A stretch of DNA of 64,000 bases. Source: Streptacidiphilus albus JL83. Its GTDB lineage: Bacteria; Actinomycetota; Actinomycetes; Streptomycetales; Streptomycetaceae. A program made the position numbers and the translations under genes. Positions 3,707-26,284 of this stretch are shown piece after piece (position 1 is the first letter of the stretch; each line of letters starts with the position of its first letter). The DNA is taken from NCBI RefSeq assembly GCF_000744705.1, contig NZ_JQML01000001.1:310001-374000 (forward strand), written 5' to 3'. The notes beneath the pieces are model-generated. The model was not told the DNA's origin and searched no databases. It was given only the letters and a program-made list of their open reading frames with translations.

Positions 3707-3739
3707 CCACGCCGGGCAGGCGGGGGTCGGCGCCGGCAC

Positions 3740-4036
3740 CGGGGCCGGCACTTCCCCAGCAAGGAGATCCTGCTGGAGGCCGTACTGGTGCAGCACATCG
3801 ACGACCAGGCGGACGCCGCCCGGCGATGGGCGGCCGCCGCCGAGCCGGTCGCGGCGCTGTTCGGCTTCCTCCTGGACGTGGTCGCGGCGTCCCACCGGCG
3901 CAAGCACACCTGCGACGCCCTGACCACGGAGAAGAGTTGGCCGCACCCGACCCTGGCCGCCTCCTCGCGACGGTTCCGCCAGGCACTCGACGAACTGCGG
4001 GGCGACCTGCCGCCAGCGGGCACATCGCCGCCCCGG
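3740..4036 (+). pseudogene. TetR-family regulator remnant lacking the DNA-binding half
   Basis: From about 3749 the frame reads HFPSKEILLEAVLVQHIDDQ, the end of a TetR recognition helix and the start of helix 4 (usual form YHFPSKEALLEAV). About 80 further residues continue as a plausible TetR ligand domain (FLLDVVAASHRRK, SSRRFRQALDELRG). Everything before the HFPSK motif is missing: the sequence upstream is Gly/Arg-rich junk running back to the AI-2E stop at 3706. The 3' end runs out against the convergent SDR gene. It therefore looks like a regulator truncated at both ends, possibly once controlling a neighbour such as the IpdF-like SDR. Confidence 0.55.
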
Positions 4037-4867
4037 TTACGGGTGCTGACTGCTGACCGACACCACTTCGCCGGTCATGTAGGAGGAGTAGCCGCTGGCC
4101 AGGAAGACGATCACGTTGGCCACCTCCCAGGGCTCCGCGTAGCGGCCGAAGGCCTCGCCCGCGGTGAGCTCCGCCAGCAGCTCGGGGGTGGTGACCTTCA
4201 CCAGGTGCGGGTGCATGGCCAGGCTCGGGGAGACGGCGTTGACCCGCACCCCGAACTCGGCGGCCTCGATCGCGGCGCAGCGGGTCAGCGCCATCACCCC
4301 GGCCTTGGCCGCGGCGTAGTGGGACTGCCCGGCCTGGGCCCGCCAGCCCACCACCGAGGCGTTGTTGACGATGACCCCGCCCTGACCCGTCGCCCGGAAG
4401 CGGCGCAGCGCGGCGCGGGTGCAGCGCATGGTGCCGGTGAGGGTGACGTCCAGCACCTTGTCCCACTGGGCGTCGTCCATCTCCACCAGTCGGGCGGTGC
4501 CACCGAGGCCGGCGTTGTTGACCAGGATGTCCAGCCGCCCGTGCCGCTCCTCGGCCAGCGCGAGCAGCGCCCCGACCTGCTGCTCGTCGGTGACGTCGCA
4601 GGGGGCGCCGGTGACCCTGGCCGAACCGAACTCCTCGGTCAGGGCCTCGACGGTCTCCTTGAGCCGGCGGGCGTGGGCGTCGCCGAGGACGACGTCGGCG
4701 CCCTCCTCCAGGAAGCGCCGGGCGGTCGCGCCGCCGATCCCGGCCCCGGCGGCGGCCGTGATCACGGCGCTGCGGCCGGCCAGCAGCCCGTGGCCGGGCA
4801 GGTACTCGGGCGCGGACGCGGTTGCGGGCGCGGAGGCAGTGGCAGGCACGGAGGCCGGAGTGGTCAT
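4037..4867 (-). CDS. IpdF-like short-chain dehydrogenase (steroid CD-ring pathway type)
   Basis: A 276-residue SDR. Seen: Ala-rich leader (1-22), cofactor loop TAAAGAGIG (37-45), NNAG (117-120), and catalytic Ser171, Tyr184, Lys188 in the blocks NNASVVGWRAQ and QSHYAAAKAGVM. From memory, these blocks, GHGLL near the N-terminus and the ending YSSYMTGEVVSVSSQ agree closely with mycobacterial IpdF (Rv3559c), which reduces the hydroxyl-indanone CoA intermediate of cholesterol C/D-ring breakdown; other SDRs differ in these places. A perfect KstR2-type palindrome lies 124-137 bases upstream of the start, and KstR2 controls this pathway in mycobacteria. The other Ipd genes are not in the window, so the role is inferred. 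Start ATG 4867. Confidence 0.8.
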   Translation of the reverse strand: MTTPASVPATASAPATASAPEYLPGHGLLAGRSAVITAAAGAGIGGATARRFLEEGADVVLGDAHARRLKETVEALTEEFGSARVTGAPCDVTDEQQVGALLALAEERHGRLDILVNNAGLGGTARLVEMDDAQWDKVLDVTLTGTMRCTRAALRRFRATGQGGVIVNNASVVGWRAQAGQSHYAAAKAGVMALTRCAAIEAAEFGVRVNAVSPSLAMHPHLVKVTTPELLAELTAGEAFGRYAEPWEVANVIVFLASGYSSYMTGEVVSVSSQHP

Positions 4868-4990
4868 GGGCGGGTCTCCCAGGACGGGCCGAGCACCCGC
4901 TCGGCGGCGATGGTGCGCCGGAGGCCGTCATCTGCCGCTCCCGGCGCAGGCGTTCGGCCTGTCGGCGACCGACCCCCCGCACGGTAACCC

Positions 4991-5004
4991 ACCAAGCACT
5001 TGTT
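4991..5004. promoter_or_regulatory. KstR2-type palindromic operator
   Basis: The 14-base sequence ACCAAGCACTTGTT fits AnCAAGnnCTTGnT, the consensus I recall for the mycobacterial TetR regulator KstR2, at every fixed position on both strands. It lies between the PadR gene end (5044) and the IpdF-like gene start (4867), which is where a promoter for the latter should be. No kstR2 gene is seen in the window. Confidence 0.6.
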
Positions 5005-5043
5005 AGGGAGACCACCGGCGTGGTCGCCGCGGCCGCCGGACCG

Positions 5044-5655
5044 CTACCCGTCCTCGCCGCGCTCGCGCCAGACCTGTTCCAGGTCCTCCAGCATGCCCTC
5101 GGCCAGGTCCCGCTCGGCCTGGTAGTAGCGCTCGGCCCACTTCAGGGTGACCGCCGGGTAGACCCACTCCTGATGGTCCCGGGCGGCCTTGATGTCCACC
5201 TCGGCCCGACGCCGCATCTCCTCCGCGTACTCGCGGTGCTGCGCCAGCACCCCGCGCATCTGCGCCGGCTCCTGCAGGTGCCCGAGCCACAGCCGCAGCA
5301 TCGGACCGTGCTTGAGCACCATCGGCTCCACCGGGGCCTCCCGTGCCCAACCGCGCAGGGCGACCGAGCCCGCCTCGGTGATGGCGTAGATCCGCTTGGA
5401 GCGCGAGCCCGTGCCCTGGTCGACGATCCGCGAGACCGCCAGGCCGGCCGCCTCCAACCGCTTGAGCTCCCCGTAGATCTGACTGAACGAGGGACTCCAG
5501 AAGAAGAAGCCCATGCTCCGGTCGGCCCACTTCTTCAGGTCGTAACCGGAGAGCTCGCGCCCGAAGGAGAGCAGACCGAGCACCGCCCAGCTGGTCACCG
5601 GCAGGTTCGGCCGCCCGTCGACCGGGGACTCCTCGGCACCTCGCGCGTCAGCCAC
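5044..5655 (-). CDS. PadR family transcriptional regulator
   Basis: A 203-residue regulator with a PadR winged helix at about residues 20-103 (LPVTSWAVLGLLSFGRELSGYDLKKW region, then SFSQIYGELKRLEAAGLA and the wing RSKRIYAITEAG) and a C-terminal VirR-like helical dimerisation arm (about 120-200). PadR repressors release DNA upon binding small aromatic or other ligands. It is divergent from the monooxygenase operon, with 90 bases between, and an interrupted palindrome sits there, so it likely represses that operon and itself. Start is GTG at 5655. The 3' end is 176 bases ahead of the IpdF-like gene, which has its own operator. Confidence 0.85.
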   Translation of the reverse strand: MADARGAEESPVDGRPNLPVTSWAVLGLLSFGRELSGYDLKKWADRSMGFFFWSPSFSQIYGELKRLEAAGLAVSRIVDQGTGSRSKRIYAITEAGSVALRGWAREAPVEPMVLKHGPMLRLWLGHLQEPAQMRGVLAQHREYAEEMRRRAEVDIKAARDHQEWVYPAVTLKWAERYYQAERDLAEGMLEDLEQVWRERGEDG

Positions 5656-5708
5656 GGCCGAAGTCTACGTCCGGCCGCTCCGTCCCTTCCCTTCCCCAGG
5701 TATGCCTG

Positions 5709-5724
5709 TTAGGTATATGTCTAA
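5709..5724. promoter_or_regulatory. Inverted repeat, candidate PadR operator
   Basis: TTAGGTATATGTCTAA has arms TTAG/CTAA around a near-symmetric ATAT core and sits between the divergent PadR and monooxygenase starts. It is the only AT-rich palindrome in the 90-base gap and lies 10 bases upstream of the GGGAGG ribosome site at 5734-5739, a place where bound repressor would block transcription. Confidence 0.4.
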
Positions 5725-5745
5725 TCGAAATACGGGAGGTTCACC

Positions 5746-6894
5746 GTGAAGTTCTCGATGATCTTCGAGGCCCAACTCGCCGACCCCACACCCGAACGCG
5801 AGCACCAGGTCATCCGCGACTGCGTCGACCAGGCCGTCCGCGCCGAGGAGGTGGGCTTCGACCGGATCTGGGCGGTCGAGCACCACTCGCTCACCCGCTA
5901 CGCGCACATGAGCGCCTCCGAGATCTTCCTGACCTGGGTCGCCGCCCGCACCAGCCGCATCCGGATCGGCCACGGCGTGGTCACCGTGCCCTTCGGCTAC
6001 CAGCACCCGGTCCGGGTCGCCGAGCGCGCCGCCATGCTGGACGTGCTCTCCGGCGGGCGGGTCGACCTCGGCGCCGGACGCGGCGCCACCCGCCAGGAGA
6101 TGTCCATGTACGGGGTCAGCCCCGAGGACACCTACCCGCAGCTGGAGGAGGCGCTGCGGATCGTCGGCCGGGCGTGGCGGAAGGAGGAGTTCGAGTGGCA
6201 CGGCAGCATCGACATCGGTCCCGGCGCGATCCTGCCCCGCCCGGTGCAGACCCCGCACCCGCCCCTCTTCATGGCCTGCAGCAAGCACGACACCCTGCGC
6301 ACCGCCGCCGAGTACGGCGTCGGCGCGCTGGTGCTGGGCTTCGCCGGGGCCGAGGACGTCCGGCAGATGCGCAGGGTCTACGACGACGCCATCGCCGCCC
6401 GCACCGGCGAGCGCCTCGTCTCCACCGAGGTCAACGACCACTTCTCGGCCCTGTGCCCGACCGTCGTGCTCGACGACGCGGCCGAGGCCTACCGGATCGG
6501 CACGCGCGGTCAGCGCTTCTTCGCCGAGTCCATCGCCCACTGGTACGGCGACGGCCCGCTCCCCTCCGAGGACACCGAGGACGTCGACAACGCCGCCGAG
6601 ATGACGCACCGCGCCGAGGACCTGGTCGCCAGGCTGCACGAGGCCGACATCCCGGTCCGTCCCCAGGAAACCGGCATCCTCAACACCGACCACGCCTACG
6701 GCGACGCCGACACCGCCATCGCCTACGTCGAGCGGCTGCGCGAGATCGGCGTGGACGAGGTCATGTGCCTGATCCAGATGGGCACCGTCCCGCAGGAGGC
6801 GTGCCTGGAGACCATCCGCCAGTGGGGCGAGAAGGTCATCCCGCACTTCCGCGCCGAGGAGCGGACGGCCACGGAGCAGGGGGCAGGCGCATGA
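5746..6894 (+). CDS. LLM class flavin-dependent monooxygenase
   Basis: A 382-residue protein of the bacterial-luciferase superfamily (TIM barrel binding FMNH2 supplied by a reductase). Landmarks: the N-terminal MKFSMIFEAQL strand, EEVGFDRIWAVEHH (the EHH triad typical of the family), RIRIGHGVVTVPFGYQHP, the GGRVDLGAGRG phosphate-binding loop, and PHPPLFMACS. Members oxidise ketones, nitriloacetate, alkanes, steroid or terpenoid intermediates and others; the substrate is not readable. GTG start at 5746 follows GGGAGG by six bases. Its stop overlaps the next start by ATGA, so it heads a three-gene operon with an SDR and a hydrolase, the classic order alcohol oxidation, oxygenation, ester or lactone cleavage. 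Confidence 0.85.
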   Translation: MKFSMIFEAQLADPTPEREHQVIRDCVDQAVRAEEVGFDRIWAVEHHSLTRYAHMSASEIFLTWVAARTSRIRIGHGVVTVPFGYQHPVRVAERAAMLDVLSGGRVDLGAGRGATRQEMSMYGVSPEDTYPQLEEALRIVGRAWRKEEFEWHGSIDIGPGAILPRPVQTPHPPLFMACSKHDTLRTAAEYGVGALVLGFAGAEDVRQMRRVYDDAIAARTGERLVSTEVNDHFSALCPTVVLDDAAEAYRIGTRGQRFFAESIAHWYGDGPLPSEDTEDVDNAAEMTHRAEDLVARLHEADIPVRPQETGILNTDHAYGDADTAIAYVERLREIGVDEVMCLIQMGTVPQEACLETIRQWGEKVIPHFRAEERTATEQGAGA

Positions 6895-7622
6895 GCCCGC
6901 TCGACGGCAGGGTGGCGGTGGTCACCGGTGCGGCGCGCGGCCAGGGAGCCGCCGAGGCGCGGATGCTGGCCGAGGCCGGCGCCCGGGTCGTCCTCACCGA
7001 CGTGCTGGAGGAGGAGGGCCGGGCCGTCGCCGCCGGGATCGGCGAGGACGGCCTGTTCCTCCGGCACGACGTGACCGACTCCGCCCAGTGGGGCCGGGTG
7101 GTCGCCGAGGCCGTCGCCCGCTTCGGCCGGCTCGACGTCCTGGTCAACAACGCCGGCATCTGGCACGCCACGCCGATCGAGAGCGAGACCGAGGCCGCCC
7201 TCGACCGGCTGCTGCGGGTCAACCTGCACGGGCCCTTCCTCGGCATCCAGGCCGTCGTGCCGGCCATGCGCGCGGTCGGCGGCGGATCGGTGGTGAACAT
7301 CTCCTCGGTCGCCGGGATCGTCGGCATCAGGGGCCACACCGCCTACGGATCCAGCAAGTTCGCCCTCCGCGGCCTCACCAGGTCGGCGGCCCTGGACCTG
7401 GCGGAGGACCGGATCAGGGTCAACTCCGTCCACCCCGGCGTCATCGACACCCCCATGGTCGCCGGGGCGATCGGGGCCGGGGGCGGTTGGCAGCACATCC
7501 CGCTCTCCCGGCCCGGGGCCTCCGACGAGGTCGCCGCCATGGTGCTCTTCCTCGCCTCGGACGCGTCCAGCTACGTCACCGGGGCGGAGTTCGTCGTGGA
7601 CGGGGGGATGACCGCCAGGTGA
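6891..7622 (+). CDS. SDR family oxidoreductase, hydroxysteroid dehydrogenase-like
   Basis: A 243-residue classical SDR with TGAARGQG (12-19), Asp37 after the second strand (predicts NAD over NADP), NNAG (86-89), Ser138/139, and Tyr152-x3-Lys156. The phrases AARGQGAAEARMLAEAGA and VNSVHPGVIDTPM place it among the 3-alpha/20-beta-hydroxysteroid and cyclic-alcohol dehydrogenases. It likely interconverts an alcohol and ketone that is substrate of the partner monooxygenase. It is coupled at both ends by 4-base overlaps (ATGA with the monooxygenase, GTGA with the hydrolase). Confidence 0.85.
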   Translation: MSPLDGRVAVVTGAARGQGAAEARMLAEAGARVVLTDVLEEEGRAVAAGIGEDGLFLRHDVTDSAQWGRVVAEAVARFGRLDVLVNNAGIWHATPIESETEAALDRLLRVNLHGPFLGIQAVVPAMRAVGGGSVVNISSVAGIVGIRGHTAYGSSKFALRGLTRSAALDLAEDRIRVNSVHPGVIDTPMVAGAIGAGGGWQHIPLSRPGASDEVAAMVLFLASDASSYVTGAEFVVDGGMTAR

Positions 7623-8560
7623 ACGCCGCCGACCCGCTCTCCGCCGAGGTCCGGGCGCTCGTCGACGCCATGGCGGAGGTCTTCCCCGACCCTGGGCGCG
7701 CCCCGCTCACGGCCGAGGCGCTGCGCGCCGCCTCGCGCGCGGGGGTCGGCCGACCGACCCGCCGACTGCCGCTGGTCGAGGACCGCGTGATCCACGGCGA
7801 CCCGGCCCGGCCCGGTTCTCCCCCCGTCCCGGTGCGGATCTACCACCCGGAGGGCGCGGTCGACGGCGGCCCGGCGGTGGTGTTCCTGCACGGCGGCGGC
7901 TGGGTGCTGTGCGACCTGGACACCCATGACGGCCTCTGCCGTGAGCTGGCCGCCCGCACCGGGGCGGCCGTCGTCGGCGTCGACTACCGCCGGGCGCCGG
8001 AACACCCCTTCCCCGCCGCCCTGCTGGACGCCTACGCGGTCCTCTGCTGGGCCGCTCGGCGGAGTGCGCGCGTCGCCCTCGCCGGTGACAGCGCGGGCGG
8101 CAACCTGGCCGCTGCCGCCGCACTGATGTCGCTGGACCGGGGCGGCCCGCGGATCGCCGCGCAGCTGCTGCTGTACCCGGTGCTCGACCACCGGCTCGAC
8201 CGACCGTCCGCCACCGCCTACGCGACCGGCTTCTTCCACACCACCGCCCATATGCGCTGGTACTGGCGGCAGTACCTCGGCGCCGACGGTGACGGCGCGG
8301 ACCCCTACGCCTCCCCCGGCCTGGCCGCCGACCTGTCCGGCCTGCCCCCGGCCTACCTGCTGCTGCCGGAGTGCGACCCGCTGCACGACGAGGGCCGCGC
8401 CTACGCCGCACGGCTCGCGGATGCCGGCGTCCCGGTCGAACTCAGCGTCGCCGCGGGGATGTTCCACGGCTTCCTGGGGCTGCGCGGAATCCTTCCCGAG
8501 GCGGACGAGGCGCTGGCCGCCGCCGCGTCCTGGCTGCGGGAGGCACTCGGCCGGCCGTGA
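7619..8560 (+). CDS. Alpha/beta hydrolase of the HSL (hormone-sensitive lipase-like) family
   Basis: A 313-residue esterase. The oxyanion motif HGGGW is at 91-95, the nucleophile elbow GDSAGG at 156-161 (Ser158), the acid is probably Asp253 in ECDPLHDEG and the base His283 in MFHGF; this is the full bacterial HSL set. No signal peptide, so cytoplasmic. I place the start at GTG 7619, which overlaps the SDR stop as GTGA. As last gene of the monooxygenase operon it probably opens an ester or lactone made by Baeyer-Villiger-type oxidation, but that is inference. Confidence 0.85.
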   Translation: MNAADPLSAEVRALVDAMAEVFPDPGRAPLTAEALRAASRAGVGRPTRRLPLVEDRVIHGDPARPGSPPVPVRIYHPEGAVDGGPAVVFLHGGGWVLCDLDTHDGLCRELAARTGAAVVGVDYRRAPEHPFPAALLDAYAVLCWAARRSARVALAGDSAGGNLAAAAALMSLDRGGPRIAAQLLLYPVLDHRLDRPSATAYATGFFHTTAHMRWYWRQYLGADGDGADPYASPGLAADLSGLPPAYLLLPECDPLHDEGRAYAARLADAGVPVELSVAAGMFHGFLGLRGILPEADEALAAAASWLREALGRP

Positions 8561-15829: not shown

Positions 15830-16569
15830 TCAGCCCGCGGCGAAGGTGCCGATGTCGCTGATCCGCCAGACGCCCTTGAGCAGCACCGCCGACACGGTGA
15901 ACATGGCCGGGGAGTCCTCGCTGTCCGCGGCCGAGCTCGCACCCGTGCCGGTGGTGGTGTCCCGCTGGTCGGCGAAGACCAGCAGCTGGGCCCGGTCGCC
16001 GTCGAGCTGCTCCAGCCCGCAGTCGGTGACGGTGGTGGTCAGCACCAGCTTCAGCTTGCCGGCGTCCGCTCGCACGGCGCCCAGCATGCTCGCGTACTGC
16101 TTGACGGCCGGGCCGGTCAGCAGCCCGCCGACGGCGTCGTCGGTGCGGGCCGGATCGGCGTAGTCGTAGGAGAAGAGGGTGTTCACCGCCTGGGTGATGC
16201 TGCCCTTGACCTGGCTGGTGCGGACCGCGTCGGTGAGCGCGGTGTTGGTCCGGCCGGGGCCGCTGTTCAGGCTCCCGGCCCGGGCCTGGGCGTAGCCAGC
16301 GAAGCAGCCGAGCACCACCGTCAGCAGCACCGCCAGCAGCGGGGTGCGGGGCCGGGGCAGCCTGCGCCACCGGCCCCCGGCCGCTCGCCGCGGGCCCTTC
16401 GCGGCGGCCGCGGCGGCCGTTGCGGCCGGTGCGGCCGGTGCGGCCGTGTCGGCGCCCGCGCCGGCGGCGCTGCCGCTGCCGGGCCGGGGCGCGGCAGGGT
16501 CTCCGTGTCGCCGGCCGCCCTGGAGGCCAGTCGGCGTCGGTGGTTGATGGTCTGGCGGGTGGTGGTCAT
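15830..16569 (-). CDS. Mce-associated membrane protein, apparently frameshifted
   Basis: Last gene of the Mce operon. The C-terminal part (frame ending 15830) is a typical Mce-associated protein: a membrane segment LLAVLLTVVLGCFAGY, then an extracytoplasmic NTF2-like domain ending FTVSAVLLKGVWRISDIGTF. That frame has no ATG and no ribosome site. A good start, ATG 16569 with AAGGAG upstream, lies in another frame and encodes MTTTRQTINHRRRLASRA, the expected basic cytoplasmic tail. The frames must join within the Ala/Pro-rich, CCG-repetitive stretch at about 16380-16500, so a one-base indel (error or mutation) is likely. Without the shift only GTG 16330 could start the product. Confidence 0.6.
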
Positions 16570-16594
16570 CGCGCAGTCTCCTTCCGGGTGCCGC

Positions 16595-17101
16595 TCACGA
16601 GTCGGTGCTCGACGCCTGGGCCAGGTCGCTGAGTTTCCAGCCGGTGGCGGTACGGGTCAGCTGTCCCAGCAGTCGGCTCTGCTTGACCGTCGGGCCTGCC
16701 CCCGGTTCGGAGACGGTGATCTGGAGGGCCACCATCACCGAGGCCAGCCCGGTGTGCTGGTCCAGCTCGGTGACCGCGCCGGCCAGCACCTTGGCCGTGG
16801 TGACCGTGTGCGCCTGCTCCACCTGCTTGCTGAAGTCGGCCTCGCCCTGGCTGAGCTGGGTGTGGAGGTCGCCGGTGGTGGACTGGCTCCAGGAGTTCAG
16901 TCCGGCGCTCAGGTGCTGCCAGTCCAGGGTGTTGAGGTTCTGCACCGCCTGCTCCCCCGCCGCCAGCACCTGGTCCCGGCTCTGCGCCAGCGCCGCCGAG
17001 CCGTCGTGGGCCGCCGCGTACCAGGACCAGCCGCCCCAGGCCGCCGCAGCCGCGGCCAGCACCGCCAGGCCGCGCGCCGCCACCGTCACCGCTGATGCCA
17101 C
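16595..17101 (-). CDS. Mce-associated membrane protein
   Basis: A 168-residue single-pass protein: membrane segment near the start (VAARGLAVLAAAAAAWGGW), a coil-like ectodomain (SRDQVLAAGEQAVQNLNTLDW) and the characteristic end TRTATGWKLSDLAQA, matching the NTF2-like tail shared by Mce-associated (Mas) proteins. These proteins stabilise or accessorise Mce lipid importers in the cell wall. GTG 17101 is selected because GAGGGGAC precedes it; a TTG at 17146 overlapping the previous stop would add 15 residues. It is 25 bases ahead of the last Mas gene. Confidence 0.75.
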   Translation of the reverse strand: MASAVTVAARGLAVLAAAAAAWGGWSWYAAAHDGSAALAQSRDQVLAAGEQAVQNLNTLDWQHLSAGLNSWSQSTTGDLHTQLSQGEADFSKQVEQAHTVTTAKVLAGAVTELDQHTGLASVMVALQITVSEPGAGPTVKQSRLLGQLTRTATGWKLSDLAQASSTDS

Positions 17102-17142
17102 TGTCGTCCCCTCACACTCTGTCGAATCAGCGCCGTGTCGAG

Positions 17143-17631
17143 TCAACGCTGTGTCATGTCACTGATGCGCCACTGCCCGTCGATCAGCCGGGCGGTCACC
17201 GACAACTGCCCCTCCACGGTGCTGGAGCGGGCGCCCTGGCGCTGGGCGGTCTGTGCCACGAAGATCAGCAGCTGCGCCTGGTCCCCGGTCAGGCTGAGCA
17301 CGCCGCTGTGGGTCACCCGGGTGGTGACGGTCAGCCGCTGGCTCCCGATCTGCCCTTCGACCTGCGCGAAGAGCAGTTGGTACTGGGTCGAGGCGGTGCC
17401 GCTGAGCAGGGTGCGCGCGGCCAGCGCGGTGGCCCCGGTGTTCTGCGGGGTGTAGGAGAGGATCCGGCTGAGGGCGCTGTCCACCTGGCTGCTGACCCGG
17501 GCGGTGGCCGCCGGGTCGATCACCGCCCGGTCGGCCGAACCGCCGGGCCGGGCCTGCAGCCCGGCGGCGCCGAAGCCCAGGGCCGTGAACCAGAGCGCGG
17601 CCGGGAGCACCCAGCGCAGGCCGCGCCTCAT
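17143..17631 (-). CDS. Mce-associated membrane protein
   Basis: A 162-residue Mas protein with an N-terminal anchor (RGLRWVLPAALWFTALGFGA), a helical section (SSQVDSALSRILSYTPQN) and the NTF2-like half ending SVTARLIDGQWRISDM, very like the other three Mas proteins of this operon. ATG 17631 overlaps the preceding stop as ATGA. Predicted to face the outside and assist the Mce complex. Confidence 0.8.
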   Translation of the reverse strand: MRRGLRWVLPAALWFTALGFGAAGLQARPGGSADRAVIDPAATARVSSQVDSALSRILSYTPQNTGATALAARTLLSGTASTQYQLLFAQVEGQIGSQRLTVTTRVTHSGVLSLTGDQAQLLIFVAQTAQRQGARSSTVEGQLSVTARLIDGQWRISDMTQR

Positions 17632-18128
17632 GAGGTGCCGCCGGAGATGGTGGTCAGCGCGGAGACCTTCCAACCGGCGCCGGTGCGCACCAGTTGCGCC
17701 TGGATGCCCCGCTGTTGCGTCTGCGCGGTGGTTCCGACCGCGCTGACCTGGACCGAGAGGGTGGCCAGCAGGGTCGCGGTGCCGCCGCGCGGGTCCAGCG
17801 CGCTGAGCGCGGCCGCGGTCACGCTGCCCACGGCCTCGGTACCGGAACCGGTGAGGCTCGCCAGGCTGCCGCTGGAGCCGCGCTGGAGCCCGTCGTGCAG
17901 CGACCCGGTGGTGGCCGCCAGCCAGCTGTGCAGCGAGCTGCCGGCGGCGGCGCCGTCCGCGCTGCTGAGTGCGGTCAGGTCGGCGCGTCCGTCGGCCAGC
18001 GCCGCGGCCCGGGCACGGGCCGGGTCGGTGTCCGGCGCCGGCCGGGCGGCCCACCAGCCCACCGCCGCCGCGCAGGCCAGCAGTCCGCCGACGGTGGCCG
18101 CCCACCAGCCGATCGACCGCCCGCTCAC
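17628..18128 (-). CDS. Mce-associated membrane protein
   Basis: A 166-residue protein, first of the four Mas genes after mceF. Anchor SIGWWAATVGGLLACAAAVGWW, then a soluble domain with SSLHSWLAATTGSLHDG and the closing block VRTGAGWKVSALTTISGG. The GTG start at 18128 overlaps the mceF stop as GTGA. Function: accessory subunit of the Mce importer by family context. Confidence 0.8.
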   Translation of the reverse strand: MSGRSIGWWAATVGGLLACAAAVGWWAARPAPDTDPARARAAALADGRADLTALSSADGAAAGSSLHSWLAATTGSLHDGLQRGSSGSLASLTGSGTEAVGSVTAAALSALDPRGGTATLLATLSVQVSAVGTTAQTQQRGIQAQLVRTGAGWKVSALTTISGGTS

Positions 18129-19243
18129 TGACCGCTCCCGGTCGGGGCGTTGGCCGAGCCCCGGACGTCGACGCCGGTGCTGGGCGGCGAGTCGCAGCCG
18201 GCCGCGCTGTTCCAGGGGCCGTCGGTGGTGTCGGTGCCGCTGTGGTGGACCGTGCCGCCGTAGCCGTCGGTGCAGGGCAGCGGCTGGAAGAAGGTGACCG
18301 CCATGCTCATGTGCGCCCCGCTGCCGTTGATCGCGGTGGATCCGGCGGCGGCGACCTGGGGAAGCCGGATCAGCAGCTCCTGGATGCCGGCCTGGCGGCC
18401 CACCGCCACGTCGGCGGTGGTGAGCAGGTTCGCCAGCAGCACGCCGAGGTTGGGGCCGACGTCCTGCAGCAGCTGGTCGAGCTGGGTGGCGGCCTCGGGG
18501 GTGTTGGTGATCAGCTGCCGCAGGTCGCTGTCGGAGCTGTCGAGTTGGGCGGCGAGCTGGTCGGCGCTGGTGGCGAAGGAGCGGATGGCGCCGCCCTCGT
18601 CGGCCTGGGTCTGCAGCACCGTTCGACCGTCCGCCAGCAGGGTGCTGGTGGCCGGCAGGGCCCGGTCGGCGGCCTCGGTGAACTGGCTGCTGCTGTCCAG
18701 CAGTGCCTGGAGGTTCTGGGCCTGCCCGGTGAACGCGTCGCCGAGCTGGTCGACCACGGTCTGCAGGGCCTGCAGCGGGACGGACTCGGTGAGGGTGTTG
18801 ACGCTGGTCAGCATGGTGGTGACCGGGGCCGGGGTGCTGGTGTCGGCCTGCCGGACGGTGTCGCCGCCGACCAGGTAGGGGGCCCGGTCGGTGGCGGGCT
18901 CCAGGTCGAGGTACTCCTCGCCGGCCACCGACAGGTCCGCCACCTGGGCGTGCAGCTGACGCGGGATGTCGTGGGCGGAGTCGTTCAGGTGCAGGTCGGC
19001 CTGGACTCCGTCGTCGGTGAGCCGGATGGGCCCGACCCGGCCGACGGAGACCCCGCGGTAGGTGACGTCCGCGTTCTGGAACAGGCCCCCGGTCTGCGCC
19101 AGGTCCACCCGCACCACGTAGTAGCCGGGCATGCCGAACAGGCCGCCCACGTCCGCGTAGTCGGCGCCGAGGTAGCCCAGTACCAGCACGGACAGCGCCA
19201 GGAAGGTGACGTTCTTGATCAGGACGACGCGCCTGAGCCTCAC
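18125..19243 (-). CDS. mceF: Mce family substrate-binding protein MceF
   Basis: A 372-residue Mce protein. One N-terminal membrane segment (VTFLALSVLVLGYLGADY), the MCE domain at about 36-115 (YYVVRVDLAQTGGLFQNADVTYRGVSVGRVGPI, LSVAGEEYLDLEP), a long coiled-coil section (about 130-290) and a C-terminal extracytoplasmic tail with two Cys and Gly/Ser-rich end. Mce proteins form a hexameric tube that passes lipids or sterols across the envelope to the YrbE permease. GTG 19243 overlaps mceE by GTGA. Position sixth of six gives the letter F. Confidence 0.88.
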   Translation of the reverse strand: MRLRRVVLIKNVTFLALSVLVLGYLGADYADVGGLFGMPGYYVVRVDLAQTGGLFQNADVTYRGVSVGRVGPIRLTDDGVQADLHLNDSAHDIPRQLHAQVADLSVAGEEYLDLEPATDRAPYLVGGDTVRQADTSTPAPVTTMLTSVNTLTESVPLQALQTVVDQLGDAFTGQAQNLQALLDSSSQFTEAADRALPATSTLLADGRTVLQTQADEGGAIRSFATSADQLAAQLDSSDSDLRQLITNTPEAATQLDQLLQDVGPNLGVLLANLLTTADVAVGRQAGIQELLIRLPQVAAAGSTAINGSGAHMSMAVTFFQPLPCTDGYGGTVHHSGTDTTDGPWNSAAGCDSPPSTGVDVRGSANAPTGSGQ

Positions 19244-20364
19244 TTGGTGCCTCCTCGGACGGCGCTCGCCGACGGCAGCGGGAAGGGCAGGCGCGCGAGC
19301 GCCCGGTCGGCGTCGGCCGCGGGGGCCGGCGGGAAGTCGCTGTCGGCCGCGGTCAGCGCGGGGATGATCTGGGTGTCCGGCGGTGCGGCCAGGTCCAGGT
19401 AGGTGTTGAGGTAGTCGCCCTTGACGCCGTTCAGCACCTGGTCCGTGAACGGGTAGGTGACCAGCACCTGGAGCGAGTCCGGCAGGTCCTGGCCGGCGTC
19501 GGCGAGCCGCTGGAGGGTGGGGGCCAGCCCCTTGAGGTCGGCGACCAGGTCGGCCTGGCTGGCGTTGACGGTGTCCACCGCGACGCCGGACAGGGTGTCC
19601 AGCGACTGGAGCATGGTGACCAGCTGCTGCCGCTGCTCGGAGAGGACGGACAGGCCGGGGCTGAGGTCGCTGAGCACCGTGTCGATCTGCTGGTTGCGGG
19701 CCGCCAGCGTGGCGGAGAGCTGGTTGAGCCCGTCCAGGGCGGCGGTGATGTCCGAGCGGTGCGCGTCGAGGTCGCCCACCAGCGTGCCGAGTCTGCTGAG
19801 CAGGTCGCGGACCTCGGGCACGTTCCCCGCCAGCGCCTGGTTCAGCTCCGTGCTGATGGTCTTCAACTGCTGCACCCCGCCGCCGTTGAGCAGCAGCGAC
19901 AGCGCCCCGAAGACCTCCTCCACCTCCGGCGAGCGGTTGGTCCTGGCCAGCGGGATCACCGCGCCGTCGGTCAGCGAGCCGGTCGCGGGCTGCTCGGCGG
20001 GCGGGCCGGAGAGTTCGATGTACTTCTCGCCCAGCAGGCTGGACTGTTCCAGCGAGGCGTAGGCGTCGGCCGGCAGGTGGACCCCGCCGTTGAGCTCCAT
20101 GGTGACCACGGCGGTCCAGCTGTCGGGAGCCAGCGCTATCCCGGTGACCCGGCCCACCGCGACGTCGTTGACCTCCACCGACGCCTGCGGGACCAGGCTG
20201 AGCACGTCGCTGAAGTCCGCCTTGACGGTGTAGGGGTGGCTGCCCAGGCCGGCCCCGCCGGGCAGCGGCAGGTCCTGCATGGCGGTGTAGCCGGAGCAGC
20301 CGGCGGTGCTGAGCACCGCGCCCGCGGCCAGCCAGCAGCAGACGGCCCGCCCGGGCCGGCTCAC
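19240..20364 (-). CDS. mceE: Mce family lipoprotein MceE
   Basis: A 374-residue Mce protein and the only one of the six with a lipobox: WLAAGAVLSTAGC puts the lipidated Cys at about residue 23, as is known for MceE/Lpr-type subunits. MCE domain at about 45-125 (YTVKADFSDVLSLVPQASVEVNDVAVGRVTGI, SLLGEKYIELS), then the helical needle region (about 140-300). GTG 20364 overlaps the mceD stop as GTGA. Confidence 0.9.
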   Translation of the reverse strand: MSRPGRAVCCWLAAGAVLSTAGCSGYTAMQDLPLPGGAGLGSHPYTVKADFSDVLSLVPQASVEVNDVAVGRVTGIALAPDSWTAVVTMELNGGVHLPADAYASLEQSSLLGEKYIELSGPPAEQPATGSLTDGAVIPLARTNRSPEVEEVFGALSLLLNGGGVQQLKTISTELNQALAGNVPEVRDLLSRLGTLVGDLDAHRSDITAALDGLNQLSATLAARNQQIDTVLSDLSPGLSVLSEQRQQLVTMLQSLDTLSGVAVDTVNASQADLVADLKGLAPTLQRLADAGQDLPDSLQVLVTYPFTDQVLNGVKGDYLNTYLDLAAPPDTQIIPALTAADSDFPPAPAADADRALARLPFPLPSASAVRGGTK

Positions 20365-21392
20365 TGGGTGCCGCCGGTGCTGGGGAAGGGCATCGGGAAG
20401 CTGAGCTCGTTCAGGTCGGCCCGGCCGTCGATACTGCCCTTGGCCGGGTCGTAGGCGCCCAACAGGTTGTCCGCGGCCAGCGGCGCGTCGTCGAGCAGCT
20501 CCGCCAGCGAGGCCCGCTGCTGGGCCATGGTCCGGGTGATCGGCACCAGCTGGTTCACCACTCCCTGCAGCTGGGCCCGGTTGGACTGGATGAAGCCCTG
20601 CACCTGGCCCAGGGCGGTGGACAGCTGCGACAGCGCGGTGCCCAGGTCGGTCCGGTCCTCCGCCAGGAAGCCGCTGACGTCGGCGAGTTCGCCGGTGGCC
20701 GACTGCACCTGGCTGTCGTTCTGCTTCAGCATGCTGGTGAAGCTCTGCAGCGAGGTCAGGGTGGCGAAGAGCTCGGTGCTGTTGCCGTTCAACGTCTGTG
20801 CGGCGGAACCAAGTTGACTGATGGACTGGCCGATGGCGGTGCCGTTGCCGTTCAGGTTCGCCGCCCCGGTGTCCAGCAGCTGCGACAGCGCGCCGTCGGA
20901 GTTGGCGCCCTGCGGGCCGAGGGCGTCGGCCAGTTGGGTGATGCTCTGGTAGAGCTGGTCGACCTCGACGGGGGTGGCGGTGCGGGACTGCGGGATGCTC
21001 CCGTGGTCGGTCAGCTGCGGGCCGCCGGTGTAGGCCGGGGTCAGCTGGACGTAGCGGTCGGCGATCAGCGTCGGCGCGACCACCACGGCGTCGGCGTCGG
21101 CCGGGACCCTGACCCCCGGGTCGACCGAGAGCACCACCTTGACCTGGGTGCCGTCCGGGGTGACCGACTCGACCGAGCCCTCCTTGACGCCGAGGATCCG
21201 CAGGTCCGAACCGGCGTACACGCCGATGGCGCGGTTGAAGTAGGCGGTGATCCGCAGGCCGCCGCCGCCGTTCAGCGAGACCACTCCGGCGGCGGTGCCG
21301 CCGCCGACCACCACCACCAGGGCGGTGCCGGCGGCGATGGCGGCCCGGGTGGAGGTCCGGCGCAGCGGTCGCCTGTCCAGTACGGATGTCAC
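20361..21392 (-). CDS. mceD: Mce family protein MceD
   Basis: A 343-residue Mce protein: basic N-terminus, membrane segment AAIAAGTALVVVVGGGTAAG, MCE domain at about 45-125 (LRITAYFNRAIGVYAGSDLRILGVKEGSVESV, IADRYVQLTPAYTGG), then coiled coil up to residue 300 and a Pro-rich tail (LSFPMPFPSTGGT). GTG 21392 overlaps the mceC stop as GTGA. Confidence 0.88.
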   Translation of the reverse strand: MTSVLDRRPLRRTSTRAAIAAGTALVVVVGGGTAAGVVSLNGGGGLRITAYFNRAIGVYAGSDLRILGVKEGSVESVTPDGTQVKVVLSVDPGVRVPADADAVVVAPTLIADRYVQLTPAYTGGPQLTDHGSIPQSRTATPVEVDQLYQSITQLADALGPQGANSDGALSQLLDTGAANLNGNGTAIGQSISQLGSAAQTLNGNSTELFATLTSLQSFTSMLKQNDSQVQSATGELADVSGFLAEDRTDLGTALSQLSTALGQVQGFIQSNRAQLQGVVNQLVPITRTMAQQRASLAELLDDAPLAADNLLGAYDPAKGSIDGRADLNELSFPMPFPSTGGTQ

Positions 21393-22423
21393 TTGCCTTT
21401 ACCTCCGGTGGTCGGGGACATGCAGCCGGAGGACGACTGCCGGTCGGCGGGCAGGTAGCTGTTCGGAATGAGCCCGCACAGGTAGACGTCGAACCAGCGT
21501 CCGTTGCCGAGGGTGTTCCCCAGCTGCTGGTAGTAGGGCCCGGCCAGGGCCAGCACCTGGTCCAGGTTGGACTGGTTGGCCTGGAGCACCGAGACCACCC
21601 GGGAGAGCGCACTGAGTGTCGGCGCCAGCTGCTGGTCGTCGTCCTGGACCAGCCCGGTCAGCTCGGCGCCCAGCTCGGTCGTCCCGACCAGCAGCGAGTG
21701 GATCGCGTCGCGGCGGCTCTGCACCTCGGCCAGCAGCAGGTTGCCGTCGGTGATCAGGTCGGCCAGCTTGTCGTTCTGGGCGGCCACGGTGCCGGTCAGG
21801 GCGGCGCTGGCGGACAGCAGCTGGGCCAGCTGGGCGTCCCGGCTGGAGATGGTCTGCGACAGCGCGGACAGGCCGGTGACCGCCGAGCGGACCGAGGGCG
21901 GGGTGTCCTTGAAGGTGTCGGAGATCGCCTGGAAGCTCGCCGCCAGCTGCTTGCTGTCCACCGAGTCCAGGGTCTGCCCCAGCCCGTCCAGCGCCTGGGA
22001 GACGTCGAAGGGCGAGCTGGTGCGGCTGCTGGGGATGGTCCGGGAGGGGTTCTGGGCGGCGTCCCCGAGCGGGTCCACCGCCAGGTACTTGGCTCCCAGC
22101 AGGGTGCGGATGTCGATGGCGGCGGTGCTGGCGTTGCCGACCCAGGCGCCGCGGACCAGGAACCCGACCTTCACCTGTGCGCCGTCCAGGGCCACCGAGG
22201 TGACCTGGCCGACCTTGACCCCGGCCACGCTGACGTCGTCGCCGGCCTCCAGTCCTGAGGACTCGGTGAAGTAGGCGCTGTAGTGGGTGCCGCCGTCGCC
22301 GATCAGCGGCAGCGCGTCGGCGTCGTAGGCCGCGAACGACACCAGGGCGCAGGCGACCACGCCGACCAGGCCGACGGTGACCGGGTTGCGGCGCCGCAGC
22401 GGAGTGAACAACGGTGGCCTCAT
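21389..22423 (-). CDS. mceC: Mce family protein MceC
   Basis: A 344-residue Mce protein with anchor NPVTVGLVGVVACALVSFAA, MCE domain at about 45-125 (YSAYFTESSGLEAGDDVSVAGVKVGQVTSVAL, LLGAKYLAVDPLG), coiled coil to about 300 and the C-terminal block RWFDVYLCGLIPNSY, a feature shared by actinobacterial MceB/C/D subunits. ATG 22423 overlaps the mceB stop as ATGA. Confidence 0.88.
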   Translation of the reverse strand: MRPPLFTPLRRRNPVTVGLVGVVACALVSFAAYDADALPLIGDGGTHYSAYFTESSGLEAGDDVSVAGVKVGQVTSVALDGAQVKVGFLVRGAWVGNASTAAIDIRTLLGAKYLAVDPLGDAAQNPSRTIPSSRTSSPFDVSQALDGLGQTLDSVDSKQLAASFQAISDTFKDTPPSVRSAVTGLSALSQTISSRDAQLAQLLSASAALTGTVAAQNDKLADLITDGNLLLAEVQSRRDAIHSLLVGTTELGAELTGLVQDDDQQLAPTLSALSRVVSVLQANQSNLDQVLALAGPYYQQLGNTLGNGRWFDVYLCGLIPNSYLPADRQSSSGCMSPTTGGKGK

Positions 22424-23451
22424 GAACCGCACCTCGGCTGGGTGATGGCGATCCCGGTGGGCGGCGCGCTGCCGTCGGAGGTGGTGACTCCGGTGACCGT
22501 GGCCTGGCACAGGTAGAGGTTGAGCCAGGAGCCGTAGGAGGCGGTCCGCCCGATCGCGGTGAACTTCTGCGGGGTCTTCTGGAGGAAGTCCTCCAGCTCC
22601 GGGGTGCCCGCCTCCAGGTTGTCCGAGAGCCGCCCCAGCTGTGCGATGGAGTCCTTGAGCGGCTGGCGGCCCTGGGCGAGCAGCCCGGCCGTGCTGGTGC
22701 TGAGCCCGGAGAGCGCGCTGATGGCCTCGCCGATCGGCTGGCGGTCCGCGGAGAATCCGCTGACCAGCTGCTGGAGGGTGGTCACCAGGGTGGTGAAGCC
22801 CTGCTGGTGGCCGTTGACGTTGTCCAGCACCGAGGTCAGGTTGTCGATCACCGAGCCGATCACCTGGTCCTTGGCGGCCAGGGTGTTGGTCAGCGTGCCG
22901 ACGTCCTGCACCAGCCCGTCGACGGTGCCGCCCTCGCCCTGGAGGACCTCCACGATCTCCTGCGCCAGCTGGTTGGTCTGGTCCGGGTCGAGCCCTTCGA
23001 ACAGCGGTTGGAAACCGTCGAAGAGCTGGGTGAGGTCCAGCGCGGGCGTGGTGCTCTGCACCGGGATGGTCCCGCCGGGCCGCAGCGACCGGCCGACCGG
23101 GCCCACGCCCTGGTCCAGCTCCAGATAGCGCTCGCCGACCAGGTTCAGGTACTTGACCGAGGCGGTCGCCGAGGCGGGCAGGGCGCGCCCGCGCTGCACG
23201 TCGAAGTGGACCAGCGCGTAGCGGCGCCCGGTCACCCGCACCCCCTCCACCTGGCCCACCTGGACCCCGGCGATCCGCACGCTGTCGCCCGCCACCAGCC
23301 CGGTGACGTCGGTGAACTGCGCGTAGTAGCCGGTGGTGGCGCCGACCGAGGTGTCGGAGACGGCGAGGGCCAGCCCGGTGGTGGCCAGCGAGGTGACCGC
23401 GATGAAGACCGCGGACTTGGCCAGCGGCCCGGCCAGGCTGCGCCGCTTCAT
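22420..23451 (-). CDS. mceB: Mce family protein MceB
   Basis: A 343-residue Mce protein: anchor SAVFIAVTSLATTGLALAVS, MCE domain at about 40-120 (YYAQFTDVTGLVAGDSVRIAGVQVGQVEGVRV, NLVGERYLELDQG), long helical region and the closing block GSWLNLYLCQATV. ATG 23451 overlaps the mceA stop as ATGA. Confidence 0.88.
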   Translation of the reverse strand: MKRRSLAGPLAKSAVFIAVTSLATTGLALAVSDTSVGATTGYYAQFTDVTGLVAGDSVRIAGVQVGQVEGVRVTGRRYALVHFDVQRGRALPASATASVKYLNLVGERYLELDQGVGPVGRSLRPGGTIPVQSTTPALDLTQLFDGFQPLFEGLDPDQTNQLAQEIVEVLQGEGGTVDGLVQDVGTLTNTLAAKDQVIGSVIDNLTSVLDNVNGHQQGFTTLVTTLQQLVSGFSADRQPIGEAISALSGLSTSTAGLLAQGRQPLKDSIAQLGRLSDNLEAGTPELEDFLQKTPQKFTAIGRTASYGSWLNLYLCQATVTGVTTSDGSAPPTGIAITQPRCGS

Positions 23452-24647
23452 CGGACCCCCACCTGCGCCCCGCGCAGCACCGGGCCGACCAGCAGGCTGC
23501 TCCAGCTGGGCAGGTCGGTGGGCCGGGTCCCGGCCGAGGGTGCCAGAAGTTCGTTGATCAGGGCGTTCTCCTGGGGCGTGTTGGGTCGGCCGGTGTACGG
23601 GGTGCTGTAGCAGGCCGGACCGCCGGTGGCGTCGTAGCGCGGGGTGTCCTGCCCGGGCAGGTAGGCCCCGCGCGAGGGCGCCGAGGTCAGGTCGACGTGC
23701 AGACCCGGCTCGTCGGTGCCCGCGCCCAGGGCCTTGTTCATCTCCGGGACGAAGTCGGCCAGGGTGCGCAGGGTGCACGGGAACTCGGAGGAGTACTCGC
23801 CGAGGAGGGTGAGCGTGCCGCGGCTGTCCGCGGCCAGCCGGATGATGGTCGACTGGTTCTGCTCCAGGAAGGCGGTGGTGCTCCCGGCCGCCGCGGTCGT
23901 GGTGGAGTAGAGGTCGGCCAGCTGGCTCTGCTGGTCGGCGACGGTGCCGGTGGTGGTGGCCAGCTCGGTGAGCGCCTGGAGCAGGTCCGGGGCGGCCTGG
24001 TTGTAGGAGCGGCTGACCTGGACCAGGTTGTGCAGGTCGCTGTTGAGGGCGGGCAGTTGCGGGTTGAACTTCTTGAGGTAGGTGTCCAGGGTGGTCAGCG
24101 TGGTGCCGAGTTCGGCGCCCCGGTCCTGGAGCGCCCCGGCGACGGCGTTCAGCGTGGCCGCGAGCTGGGCCGGCTGGACGTCGTCCAGCAGTGGCAGCAG
24201 GTTGTCGAAGACCTGCTCCAGCTCGATCGCGTCGCTGGAGCGGTCCTCCGGGATGACGCTGCCGGCCGTCAGCGCCGGGCCGCTCGCGGTGGCGGGCGGG
24301 ATCAGCTCCACGAAGCGGGCGCCGAACAGGGTGGTCGGCAGCATCTGCACGGAGACCCCGGCCGGGATCTGCCGCAGCCGGGCGGGCGGGATGGCCAGGG
24401 TCAGCGTCGCCCCCGAACCGTTCGCCCTGATCGAGCTGACCCGGCCGACGACCACGCCGTCCAGCTTGACGTCGGCGTCGACCTGCATCTGGTTGCCGAC
24501 GCTGTCGGTGTGCACCAGGACGCTGTCGGTGTCGCTGAAGTCGTGGTCGTACACCGACACCGAGAGCCAGGCCAGCAGCACCGGCGCCATCAGGAAGCAC
24601 AGCCCGGCGCCCCGGCGGCGCAGGGTGGAGACCGGCCGGGCGCTCAT
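23448..24647 (-). CDS. mceA: Mce family protein MceA
   Basis: A 399-residue Mce protein, longest and first of the six. Anchor GAGLCFLMAPVLLAWLSVSV, MCE domain at about 40-120 (DSVGNQMQVDADVKLDGVVVGRVSSI, LFGARFVELIPPA), coiled-coil section with VFDNLLPLLDDVQPAQLAATLN, then a 110-residue C-terminal domain (EFPCTLRTLADFVPEMNKALG, YDATGGPACYSTPYTG). The Cys pair in the tail probably forms a disulfide. ATG 24647 overlaps the yrbEB stop as GGATGA. Confidence 0.88.
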   Translation of the reverse strand: MSARPVSTLRRRGAGLCFLMAPVLLAWLSVSVYDHDFSDTDSVLVHTDSVGNQMQVDADVKLDGVVVGRVSSIRANGSGATLTLAIPPARLRQIPAGVSVQMLPTTLFGARFVELIPPATASGPALTAGSVIPEDRSSDAIELEQVFDNLLPLLDDVQPAQLAATLNAVAGALQDRGAELGTTLTTLDTYLKKFNPQLPALNSDLHNLVQVSRSYNQAAPDLLQALTELATTTGTVADQQSQLADLYSTTTAAAGSTTAFLEQNQSTIIRLAADSRGTLTLLGEYSSEFPCTLRTLADFVPEMNKALGAGTDEPGLHVDLTSAPSRGAYLPGQDTPRYDATGGPACYSTPYTGRPNTPQENALINELLAPSAGTRPTDLPSWSSLLVGPVLRGAQVGVR

Positions 24648-25507
24648 CCCGCCACCCGCACGGTGGTGGTGGCGCCCCAGATCGCCAGGCTGAGGAAGAA
24701 GTCGGTCAGGCTGATGATCACGATGGCGTTGCGCACCGAGCGCCCCACCGCGATCCCCACCCCGGCCGGGCCGCCCTTGGCGTGGAAGCCGTAGTAGCAG
24801 TGCGCCAGGATCACCACCACGCTGAAGACCAGCACCTTGAGCGCCGACAGCAGCACGTCCTCCGGTGCCAGGAACAGGTTGAAGTAGTGGTCGTAGACCC
24901 CGGAGGACTGGCCCTCGCCGTACACCGTCACCAGCCGCGAGGCCGCGTAGGAGGCGAGCAGTCCCACCCCGTACAGCGGGACGATGGCGACCACCCCGGC
25001 GATGATCCGGGTGGTGACCAGGTAGGGCACGCTGCGGATGCCCATCGCCTCGAGCGCGTCGACCTCCTCGTTGATCCGCATCGCGCCCAGTTGTGCGGTG
25101 AAGCCCGCGCCCACGGTCGCCGACAGCGCCAGACCGGCCACCAGCGGTGCGATCTCCCGGGTGTTGAAGTAGGCCGAGATGAAGCCGGTGAAGGCGGTGG
25201 TCCCGATCTCGTTCATCGCCGAGTAGCCCTGCAGGCCGACCACCGTGCCGGTGGCCAGGGTCATCCCGACCATCACCCCGACGGTGCCGCCGATGACGCC
25301 CAGCCCCCCGCTGCCGAAGGCGACTTCGGAGAGCAGCCGGAGCACCTCGCGCAGGTAGCGGCGCAGGGTCCGCGGGATCCACAGCAGCGCGCCCAGATGG
25401 AAGATCAGATGGTCGCCGGACTCGTCCAGCCAGCGGAACCAGTTGCGGCGGGGGGCCGCCGGATCGACGACTGCCTCGGGCGCGCTCTCACGCTCGGTCA
25501 AGGCCAT
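24644..25507 (-). CDS. yrbEB: MlaE/YrbE-type ABC transporter permease, second copy
   Basis: A 287-residue integral membrane permease. The first 35 residues are acidic and soluble, an interfacial helix follows, then five or six membrane helices with the MlaE signature EEVDALEAMGIRSVPYLVTTRI (cytoplasmic coupling loop) and the closing IISLTDFFLSLAIW. With YrbEA it forms the membrane core of the Mce importer and contacts the Mkl-type ATPase. ATG 25507 follows the yrbEA stop by three bases. Confidence 0.9.
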   Translation of the reverse strand: MALTERESAPEAVVDPAAPRRNWFRWLDESGDHLIFHLGALLWIPRTLRRYLREVLRLLSEVAFGSGGLGVIGGTVGVMVGMTLATGTVVGLQGYSAMNEIGTTAFTGFISAYFNTREIAPLVAGLALSATVGAGFTAQLGAMRINEEVDALEAMGIRSVPYLVTTRIIAGVVAIVPLYGVGLLASYAASRLVTVYGEGQSSGVYDHYFNLFLAPEDVLLSALKVLVFSVVVILAHCYYGFHAKGGPAGVGIAVGRSVRNAIVIISLTDFFLSLAIWGATTTVRVAG

Positions 25508-25510
25508 GGC

Positions 25511-26284
25511 TCACATGCCCTTCTGCGGGACGAGCTGGAGGTAGACGGCGGTCAGCACCACGTTGACCAGGAAGAGCAGCAGGAAGGTGATCACCACGGA
25601 CTGGTTCACCGCGTCGCCGACGCCCTTGGGGCCGCCGCGCGGGTTCAGTCCCCGGTGTGCCGCGACCAGGCCGGCGATCAGGCCGAAGATCAGCGCCTTC
25701 AGCTCGCCCACATAGATGTCGGGCAGCTGGGCCAGGGCCGAGAAGCTGGAGAGGTAGGCGCCCGGCGTGCCGTGCTGGAGGTAGACGTTGAAGAAGTAGC
25801 CGCCGACCACCCCGACCACCGACACCAGCCCGTTCAGCAGCACCGCGACCAGCATCGTGGCCAGCACCCTGGGCACGATCAGCCGCTGGACCGGGGAGAC
25901 GCCCATGACCTCCATGGCGTCCAGCTCCTCGCGGATCTTGCGCGAGCCCAGGTCGGCGCAGATCGCCGACCCGCCGGCCCCGGCGATCAGCAGGGCCACG
26001 ATCAGCGGGCTGGCCTGCTGCACCACCGCCAGCACGCTGGCCCCGCCGGTGAACGACTGGGCGCCCAACTGCTGGGTCAGCGAACCGACCTGAAGCGCGA
26101 TCACCGCGCCGAAGGGGATCGAGACCAGGGCCGCCGGAAGGATGGTGACGCTGGCGACGAACCAGAACTGCTCGACCAGCTCCCGTACTTGGAACGGACG
26201 GCGAAAGGTGTCGCGGAACGTGGTCGCGCCCAGCGAGAAGAAGTCCCCGGACTGCCGGAGCGCGGACTGCACCGGATTGCTCAT
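25511..26284 (-). CDS. yrbEA: MlaE/YrbE-type ABC transporter permease, first copy
   Basis: A 257-residue permease of the MlaE family with the coupling-loop signature REELDAMEVMGVSPVQRLIVPRV and membrane helices such as VLAVVQQASPLIVALLIAGAGG and SVVITFLLLFLVNVVLTAVY. The interfacial N-terminal helix (FQVRELVEQFWFVASV) is typical. ATG 26284 overlaps the ATPase stop as ATGA. Confidence 0.9.
   Translation of the reverse strand: MSNPVQSALRQSGDFFSLGATTFRDTFRRPFQVRELVEQFWFVASVTILPAALVSIPFGAVIALQVGSLTQQLGAQSFTGGASVLAVVQQASPLIVALLIAGAGGSAICADLGSRKIREELDAMEVMGVSPVQRLIVPRVLATMLVAVLLNGLVSVVGVVGGYFFNVYLQHGTPGAYLSSFSALAQLPDIYVGELKALIFGLIAGLVAAHRGLNPRGGPKGVGDAVNQSVVITFLLLFLVNVVLTAVYLQLVPQKGM

Follow-up and report, generated by a model that had tools for sequence, protein, structure and literature searches.

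The question raised by this locus is whether a 14-bp palindrome in front of an SDR gene of a soil-dwelling relative of Streptomyces is an operator of the repressor KstR2, and, if so, where the other members of the regulon lie. The window, by which we mean the whole 64-kb stretch of DNA analysed, contains the SDR gene at 4037..4867 (minus strand) and the palindrome at 4991..5004. We refer to the gene as ipdF; it is open over 276 codons and encodes, by homology, an SDR of the family that oxidises 5-OH-HIC-CoA. Oxidation of the 5-OH group of this compound is shown for the M. tuberculosis IpdF in Crowe 2017. Against PRK07831/NF005880 the window protein scored 451 bits (cut-off 336), compared to 474 bits for the IpdF of the canonical cluster L136, and among the 68 matches in the 9.9-Mb genome it was the only one to exceed the NF005880 cut-off, with the next best at 154 bits. 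Among solved structures 3o38 scored highest (339 bits; next 156), and the SDR motifs NNAG, NNAS (carrying the catalytic S) and YAAAK (YxxxK) aligned with it. In a tree of 55 sequences, built without a non-IpdF outgroup, the gene was sister to the ipdF of L126, L123 and L133 (genomes G001, G004 and G011) with support of 99/95. The sequence-only reading had taken the SDR to be of the IpdF type, and both its NF005880 score and its grouping with, rather than outside, the ipdF genes of complete clusters in this outgroup-free tree bear this out. A second proposal, that the gene is part of a transferred piece of steroid catabolism, finds no backing for the window ipdF, given its well-supported sister relationship to three congeners.

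Within the window, AnCAAGnnCTTGnT, the KstR2 consensus given in Kendall 2010, is matched exactly at a single place, the palindrome ACCAAGCACTTGTT (mean in shuffled sequence, 0.00), and the pattern search thus agrees with the earlier claim that 4991-5004 fits every fixed position of that consensus. With at most one mismatch to the 14-mer pattern, the window holds two sites against 0.21 expected. The site is embedded in an extended operator, CCTAACAAGTGCTTGGTGGGTTA (4985..5007, minus strand), that matches the extended pattern CCTAACAAGTGYTTGGTNGGTTA exactly, and it lies 123 bp from the ATG of ipdF. Kendall 2010 also reports binding of KstR2 in EMSA at three sites, and the M. tuberculosis protein bound the Rv3560c/Rv3561 probe, which is located before fadE30-ipdF and contains GCTAACCTACCAAGCACTTGCT; the window sequence GGTAACCCACCAAGCACTTGTT resembles this site outside the 14-mer as well.

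A genome-wide search for further copies of the 14-base motif, as had been suggested, did recover two more strict sites, but neither is a regulon member. These sites, at 565 kb and 6.70 Mb, were rejected as candidates as they lie inside unrelated reading frames of 56 codons (by our reading of the sequence) and 621 codons. The strict pattern is not enriched, with three sites in 9.9 Mb compared to four for the reversed control, which on its face would suit a palindrome that arose by chance before this SDR gene. Given the absence of enrichment and the position of the other strict sites within reading frames, the 14-mer string alone proves little, and it is the context that is informative. Searched with up to three mismatches, the extended form turns up only twice in the genome (control, 0), and the second occurrence, at 6,624,671-6,624,693 with one mismatch, lies 71 bp before a KstR2-like gene, a placement that argues against chance. 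One-mismatch 14-mer sites were also present upstream of ipdA, at 407,510-407,523 and a distance of 43 bp, and upstream of the second of two further SDR genes (SDR11), at 419,334-419,347 and a distance of 54 bp. Altogether, the 102.5 kb of the organism's own stretches around the pathway contain six sites with at most one mismatch, four of them before pathway genes and two, at 416187 and 6631053, not preceding any. Like those of the relatives, the sites at 0.41 and 6.62 Mb deviate from the consensus at one base.

Conservation was assessed in the best 80 of at least 487 confirmed relatives. The exact strict 14-mer was absent from the DNA of all 80 of these loci, a result that speaks for chance and at first looked like a refutation, but a scan relaxed by one base reversed it: AACAAGTGTTTGGT, which differs at one base from AACAAGTGCTTGGT of the window, stands in front of the ipdF operon in 78 of these best 80, the exceptions being L087 and L110, where the relaxed 14-mer was not found at the ipdF locus. 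In 46 of the 78 it lies within 450 bp of ipdF; in the other 32 the upstream distance is 1,169-1,321 bp, and 31 of these 32 have a gene between operator and ipdF that was called as fadE family. We then surveyed 150 genomes, including that of this organism. The relaxed pattern CCTAACAAGTGYTTGGTNGG (up to two mismatches) was found in 32 of 59 ipdF-positive genomes, being missing in 27, and in none of 91 ipdF-negative genomes; its reversed control matched in 7 of the 150. For 28 of the 32 positives, cross-reading by hand placed the site within 1.3 kb of ipdF, and in the remaining four it was 7 kb away but inside the cluster (G009), 19 kb away (G095) or on other contigs (G103 and G135). Given the conserved position in the relatives and the restriction to ipdF-positive genomes, a chance palindrome is extremely improbable. 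These data support the identification of 4991-5004, by type, as a predicted KstR2-type operator.

The short distance between operator and ipdF in the window appears to have a simple origin. Directly before ipdF lies what remains of the 3' end of a fadE30-type gene (4864..4917, minus strand; 54 bp), which reads RTIAAERVLGPSWETRP followed by a stop codon that overlaps the ipdF ATG. In the seven intact operator-fadE-ipdF loci compared, the fadE closes with variants like (R)NIIAERVLGLPKEVRP plus stop and has an identical 4-base overlap with ipdF, and the fadE30 of L136 ends NIIAERVLGLPREVKG. Another genome, G003, retains both ends of a fadE. Given this fadE-type tail, the closeness of operator and ipdF most likely arose by deletion of the fadE.

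The sequence-only reading had held that the rest of the pathway was absent, which did not prove correct. A search of the full genome recovered kstR2 and ipdA, ipdB and ipdC, and CD-ring genes occupy three distant places of the chromosome, at 0.31, 0.41 and 6.62 Mb, each with operator-like sites, so that its alternative of a regulon scattered over the chromosome is supported. The KstR2-like TetR gene (genome 6,624,765-6,625,388), with an operator nearly identical to that of the window in front, is directly followed by a PRK07801 thiolase, and the genes beside this pair match the gap-pgk-tpi flank of the L123, L126 and L133 clusters (gene names by our reading). The stretch at 407.6-415.0 kb carries ipdA, ipdB, ipdC, echA20, two fadE genes and the genes for an enoyl-CoA hydratase and one SDR, and the second SDR gene lies at 418.4-419.3 kb. 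Of the expected members, kstR2, fadA6, ipdF, ipdA, ipdB, ipdC, echA20 and two SDRs are all present. Genome-wide searches returned one clear copy each of ipdF, ipdA, ipdC, kstR2 and the thiolase, the runners-up being at 154 bits, 35%, 37%, 40% (a fragment) and 53%, respectively.

The assignments of these genes rest on several comparisons. Ten of twelve genes paired best with their counterpart in L136, a cluster from a genome of the same class whose gene labels we assigned from the M. tuberculosis gene order, at 45-66% identity (45% for KstR2); no close counterpart of the second fadE or the extra hydratase was found in L136. The NCBIfam cut-offs cleared by the L136 versions of EchA20, the thiolase, IpdF and the two SDRs are also cleared by the organism's own proteins. 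No NCBIfam match up to 1e-30 was found for KstR2, IpdA or IpdB, and IpdC is below the cut-off of its only NCBIfam model (256 vs 453). Among solved structures, IpdA matched 6co6, 6coj and 6con, which we take to be IpdAB structures, at 363-385 bits (next 95), and EchA20 matched nothing more specific than general enoyl-CoA hydratases (95 bits at best). The KstR2-like protein matched 2ibd ("Possible transcriptional regulator"), presumably a Rhodococcus protein, at 229 bits and the KstR2 chains 4w1u and 4w97 at 195 bits, with the next at 88. It carries YRFVRDTVW, close to YRFIRDTVW, which a 2026 survey lists as motif KstR2-5. The KstR2-3 motif of the M. tuberculosis protein was not seen in our reading of the structure alignment, but since the survey reports this motif only from Mycobacteriaceae, it is hardly defining for other families. 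The best FadD3 candidate, at 5.46 Mb (L198, 9425-12402), is 54% identical to the L136 FadD3 over 374 residues, and no operator was found in the 20 kb around it; it adjoins a gene that we read as lipid-transfer/thiolase-like.

Comparison with thirteen congeners indicated that the three loci hold genes of two cluster types. Ten of these congeners have a cluster that we term type 1, or most of it, and three (L128, L131 and L135) have a divergent type 2; the type-1 sets comprise most of L043-L122 together with L123-L127, L129, L130 and L132-L134. The organism's own ipdF, kstR2 and thiolase are of type 1 (86, 91 and 91% identity at best, vs 66, 48 and 70% to type 2). In contrast, its ipdA, ipdB, ipdC and echA20 are of type 2 (87, 84, 86 and 89%, vs 72, 66, 70 and 71% to type 1), as are fadE, fadE2, ech9, SDR10 and SDR11 (87, 76, 93, 91 and 82%, vs 61, 41, 78, 62 and 53%), so that the genes shared with L128, L131 and L135 are 76-93% identical at best. 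Judged by these identities, the pathway is a mosaic of an ipdF, kstR2 and thiolase of the common streptomycete type and a remainder of the second type. In the type-2 layout ipdF stands between ipdC and echA20, with a TetR gene and a thiolase within the same 20 kb; at the organism's own 0.41-Mb locus there is a four-base overlap between ipdC and echA20, and in the 15 kb compared no ipdF, TetR gene or thiolase of the cluster was found, unlike in the type-2 clusters. If anything was acquired, it may have been this second-type cluster. Strict-consensus sites also occur inside the type-2 clusters (one in L128, three in L131 and two in L135), and L131 carries the very 14-mer of the window.

Type-1 clusters of Streptomyces and Streptacidiphilus share with this organism the ipdF, kstR2, thiolase and extended operator, but in them ipdF stays with other pathway genes, unlike the window ipdF. 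This is true even of G003, which is also split, with ipdF and ipdCBA-echA20 on one contig and kstR2, the thiolase, ech9 and a fadE on another. In the tree the G003 ipdF groups with the G002 gene (100/97) and the window ipdF with those of G001, G004 and G011, and these different partners suggest that splitting of the cluster may have happened more than once. In G012 the complete cluster sits on a single contig (L134), and a further kstR2-like gene lies on another (L196, 8604-9340), with an operator-like site and a hydrolase homologue nearby.

The surroundings of ipdF are of a different nature. The gene is flanked by an AI-2E transporter gene on one side and, on the other, by genes for a PadR regulator, a luciferase-like monooxygenase, an SDR and an HSL-type hydrolase (5044-8560). 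Homologues of these four occur at other ipdF loci among the best 80 of at least 487 relatives (PadR, 17; SDR, 14; hydrolase, 10; monooxygenase, 8), and near kstR2 genes elsewhere a hydrolase homologue was found in G003 and G012 and an SDR homologue in G003; the group is possibly an accessory module. At 15830-27237 (minus strand), 11 kb from ipdF, lies what we read as an MCE transporter cluster. Three of its genes that were scanned encode MlaD plus Mce4_CUP1, MlaE permease and ABC ATPase domains, and no operator-like site with at most one mismatch was found within it. An open stretch at 3707-4099 (plus strand), which by our reading has a TetR-like HTH end, FPSKEILLEAV, is perhaps a broken TetR gene; it was rejected as a kstR2 remnant, given an E value of 0.76 in comparison with the organism's own KstR2 and no Pfam match up to 0.01.

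The new flanks of ipdF, together with the deletion scar in the leader between operator and ATG, could indicate that the operator is a relic, left unbound or of minor effect after relocation, and that ipdF has been kept for another SDR reaction. The dN/dS of the window ipdF, estimated by a simple count method, is 0.67 in comparison with one type-2 ipdF, which points the same way, but it is 0.16-0.25 in comparison with four type-1 congeners. Moreover, the intact 14-mer is a better palindrome than the relatives' version (TGCTTG vs TGTTTG), with a C in place of the type-1 T that restores the mycobacterial consensus, and given that no other ipdF was found in the genome, the pathway would need the window copy. 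We therefore consider a relic quite improbable and favor a functional operator.

The favored reading of a KstR2-controlled regulon leaves its substrate to be considered. The steroid catabolism of the sequence-only reading, taken as a whole pathway, is unsupported. Among the four strong FAD_binding_2 proteins of the genome KstD was not found, three being succinate dehydrogenase/fumarate reductase subunits and one an L-aspartate oxidase, and the best HsaC-type match in the genome reached only 24 bits (cut-off 366), in searches run without a true KstD or HsaC as positive control. Both proteins are expected to score strongly with the models used. Given these results, the genome looks, from its gene content, like one carrying the CD-ring (HIP) module alone. 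The lack of KstD and of a strong HsaC match, as well as the absence of the steroid pathway from 55 of 57 Streptomyces genomes reported in Bergstrand 2016, would also fit a regulon that is controlled by KstR2 but serves another bicyclic acid, e.g., a terpenoid-derived one, instead of a steroid CD-ring acid. This is unlikely, although it carries more weight than a relic, as the ring-opening genes ipdA, ipdB, ipdC and ipdF together with echA20 all match best the corresponding genes of L136, and a 1977 paper cited in Crowe 2017 refers in its title to HIP metabolites from Streptomyces rubescens.

Very probably, then, a KstR2-type TetR repressor uses 4991-5004 as its operator and has ipdF as a target, within a regulon of three loci for which we propose the following working and origin. 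The sequence, its conservation, the gene content, the mosaic and the remnant are observed; for repressor binding, effector, co-induction, enzyme activity and order of events, we infer a model. The repressor would be made from a gene 6.3 Mb from the window ipdF on the same contig, behind its own near-copy of the operator. With no substrate present, it would hold 4991-5004 and keep ipdF shut; once HIP-CoA or a closely similar CD-ring intermediate formed, it would leave the DNA, and ipdF, kstR2-thiolase and ipdABC-echA20-fadE would be transcribed together from the three loci. The ancestral operon would have been operator-fadE30-ipdF-kstR2-thiolase, an arrangement still present in many streptomycetes. 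From it, ipdF with an operator would have ended at 0.31 Mb, with fadE30 cut to its last 17 codons and stop and the operator thereby brought close to ipdF, and kstR2-thiolase with an operator would have remained beside gap-pgk-tpi, the place of the whole cluster in the three nearest congeners. The remaining steps would come from a second-type cluster in which precisely ipdF, kstR2 and the thiolase are missing.

As described in Kendall 2010 and Crowe 2017, the KstR2 regulon of Mycobacterium and Rhodococcus has the same operator consensus in the same position before fadE30-ipdF and shares kstR2, fadA6, ipdF, ipdABC, echA20, two SDRs and fadE with the genes found here. In contrast with its single region, the genes here lie at three loci up to 6.3 Mb apart with two cluster types mixed, and the fadE30 before ipdF, present in that regulon, is reduced to a remnant. 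Among the titles and abstract openings listed in searches of openly licensed PMC papers, no account of a split KstR2 regulon in streptomycetes was found. The present results add streptomycetes to the mycobacteria and rhodococci in which this regulon was described, and show that a consensus one base too strict hides the streptomycete KstR2-type sites. They also provide candidate genes for the HIP metabolism of a Streptomyces named in the 1977 title cited in Crowe 2017. More tentatively, and with slightly less than even credence, streptomycetes may form a guild of CD-ring finishers, in which a KstR2-controlled HIP module without an A/B-ring pathway would act on HIP-like acids left by other microbes; here, reciprocal gene loss between two unlike clusters would have left one copy per step, with only the shared operator linking genes across 6.3 Mb. 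The organism offers a natural experiment, a catabolic regulon over three loci and two cluster types in which the dispersed operator is the only visible link.
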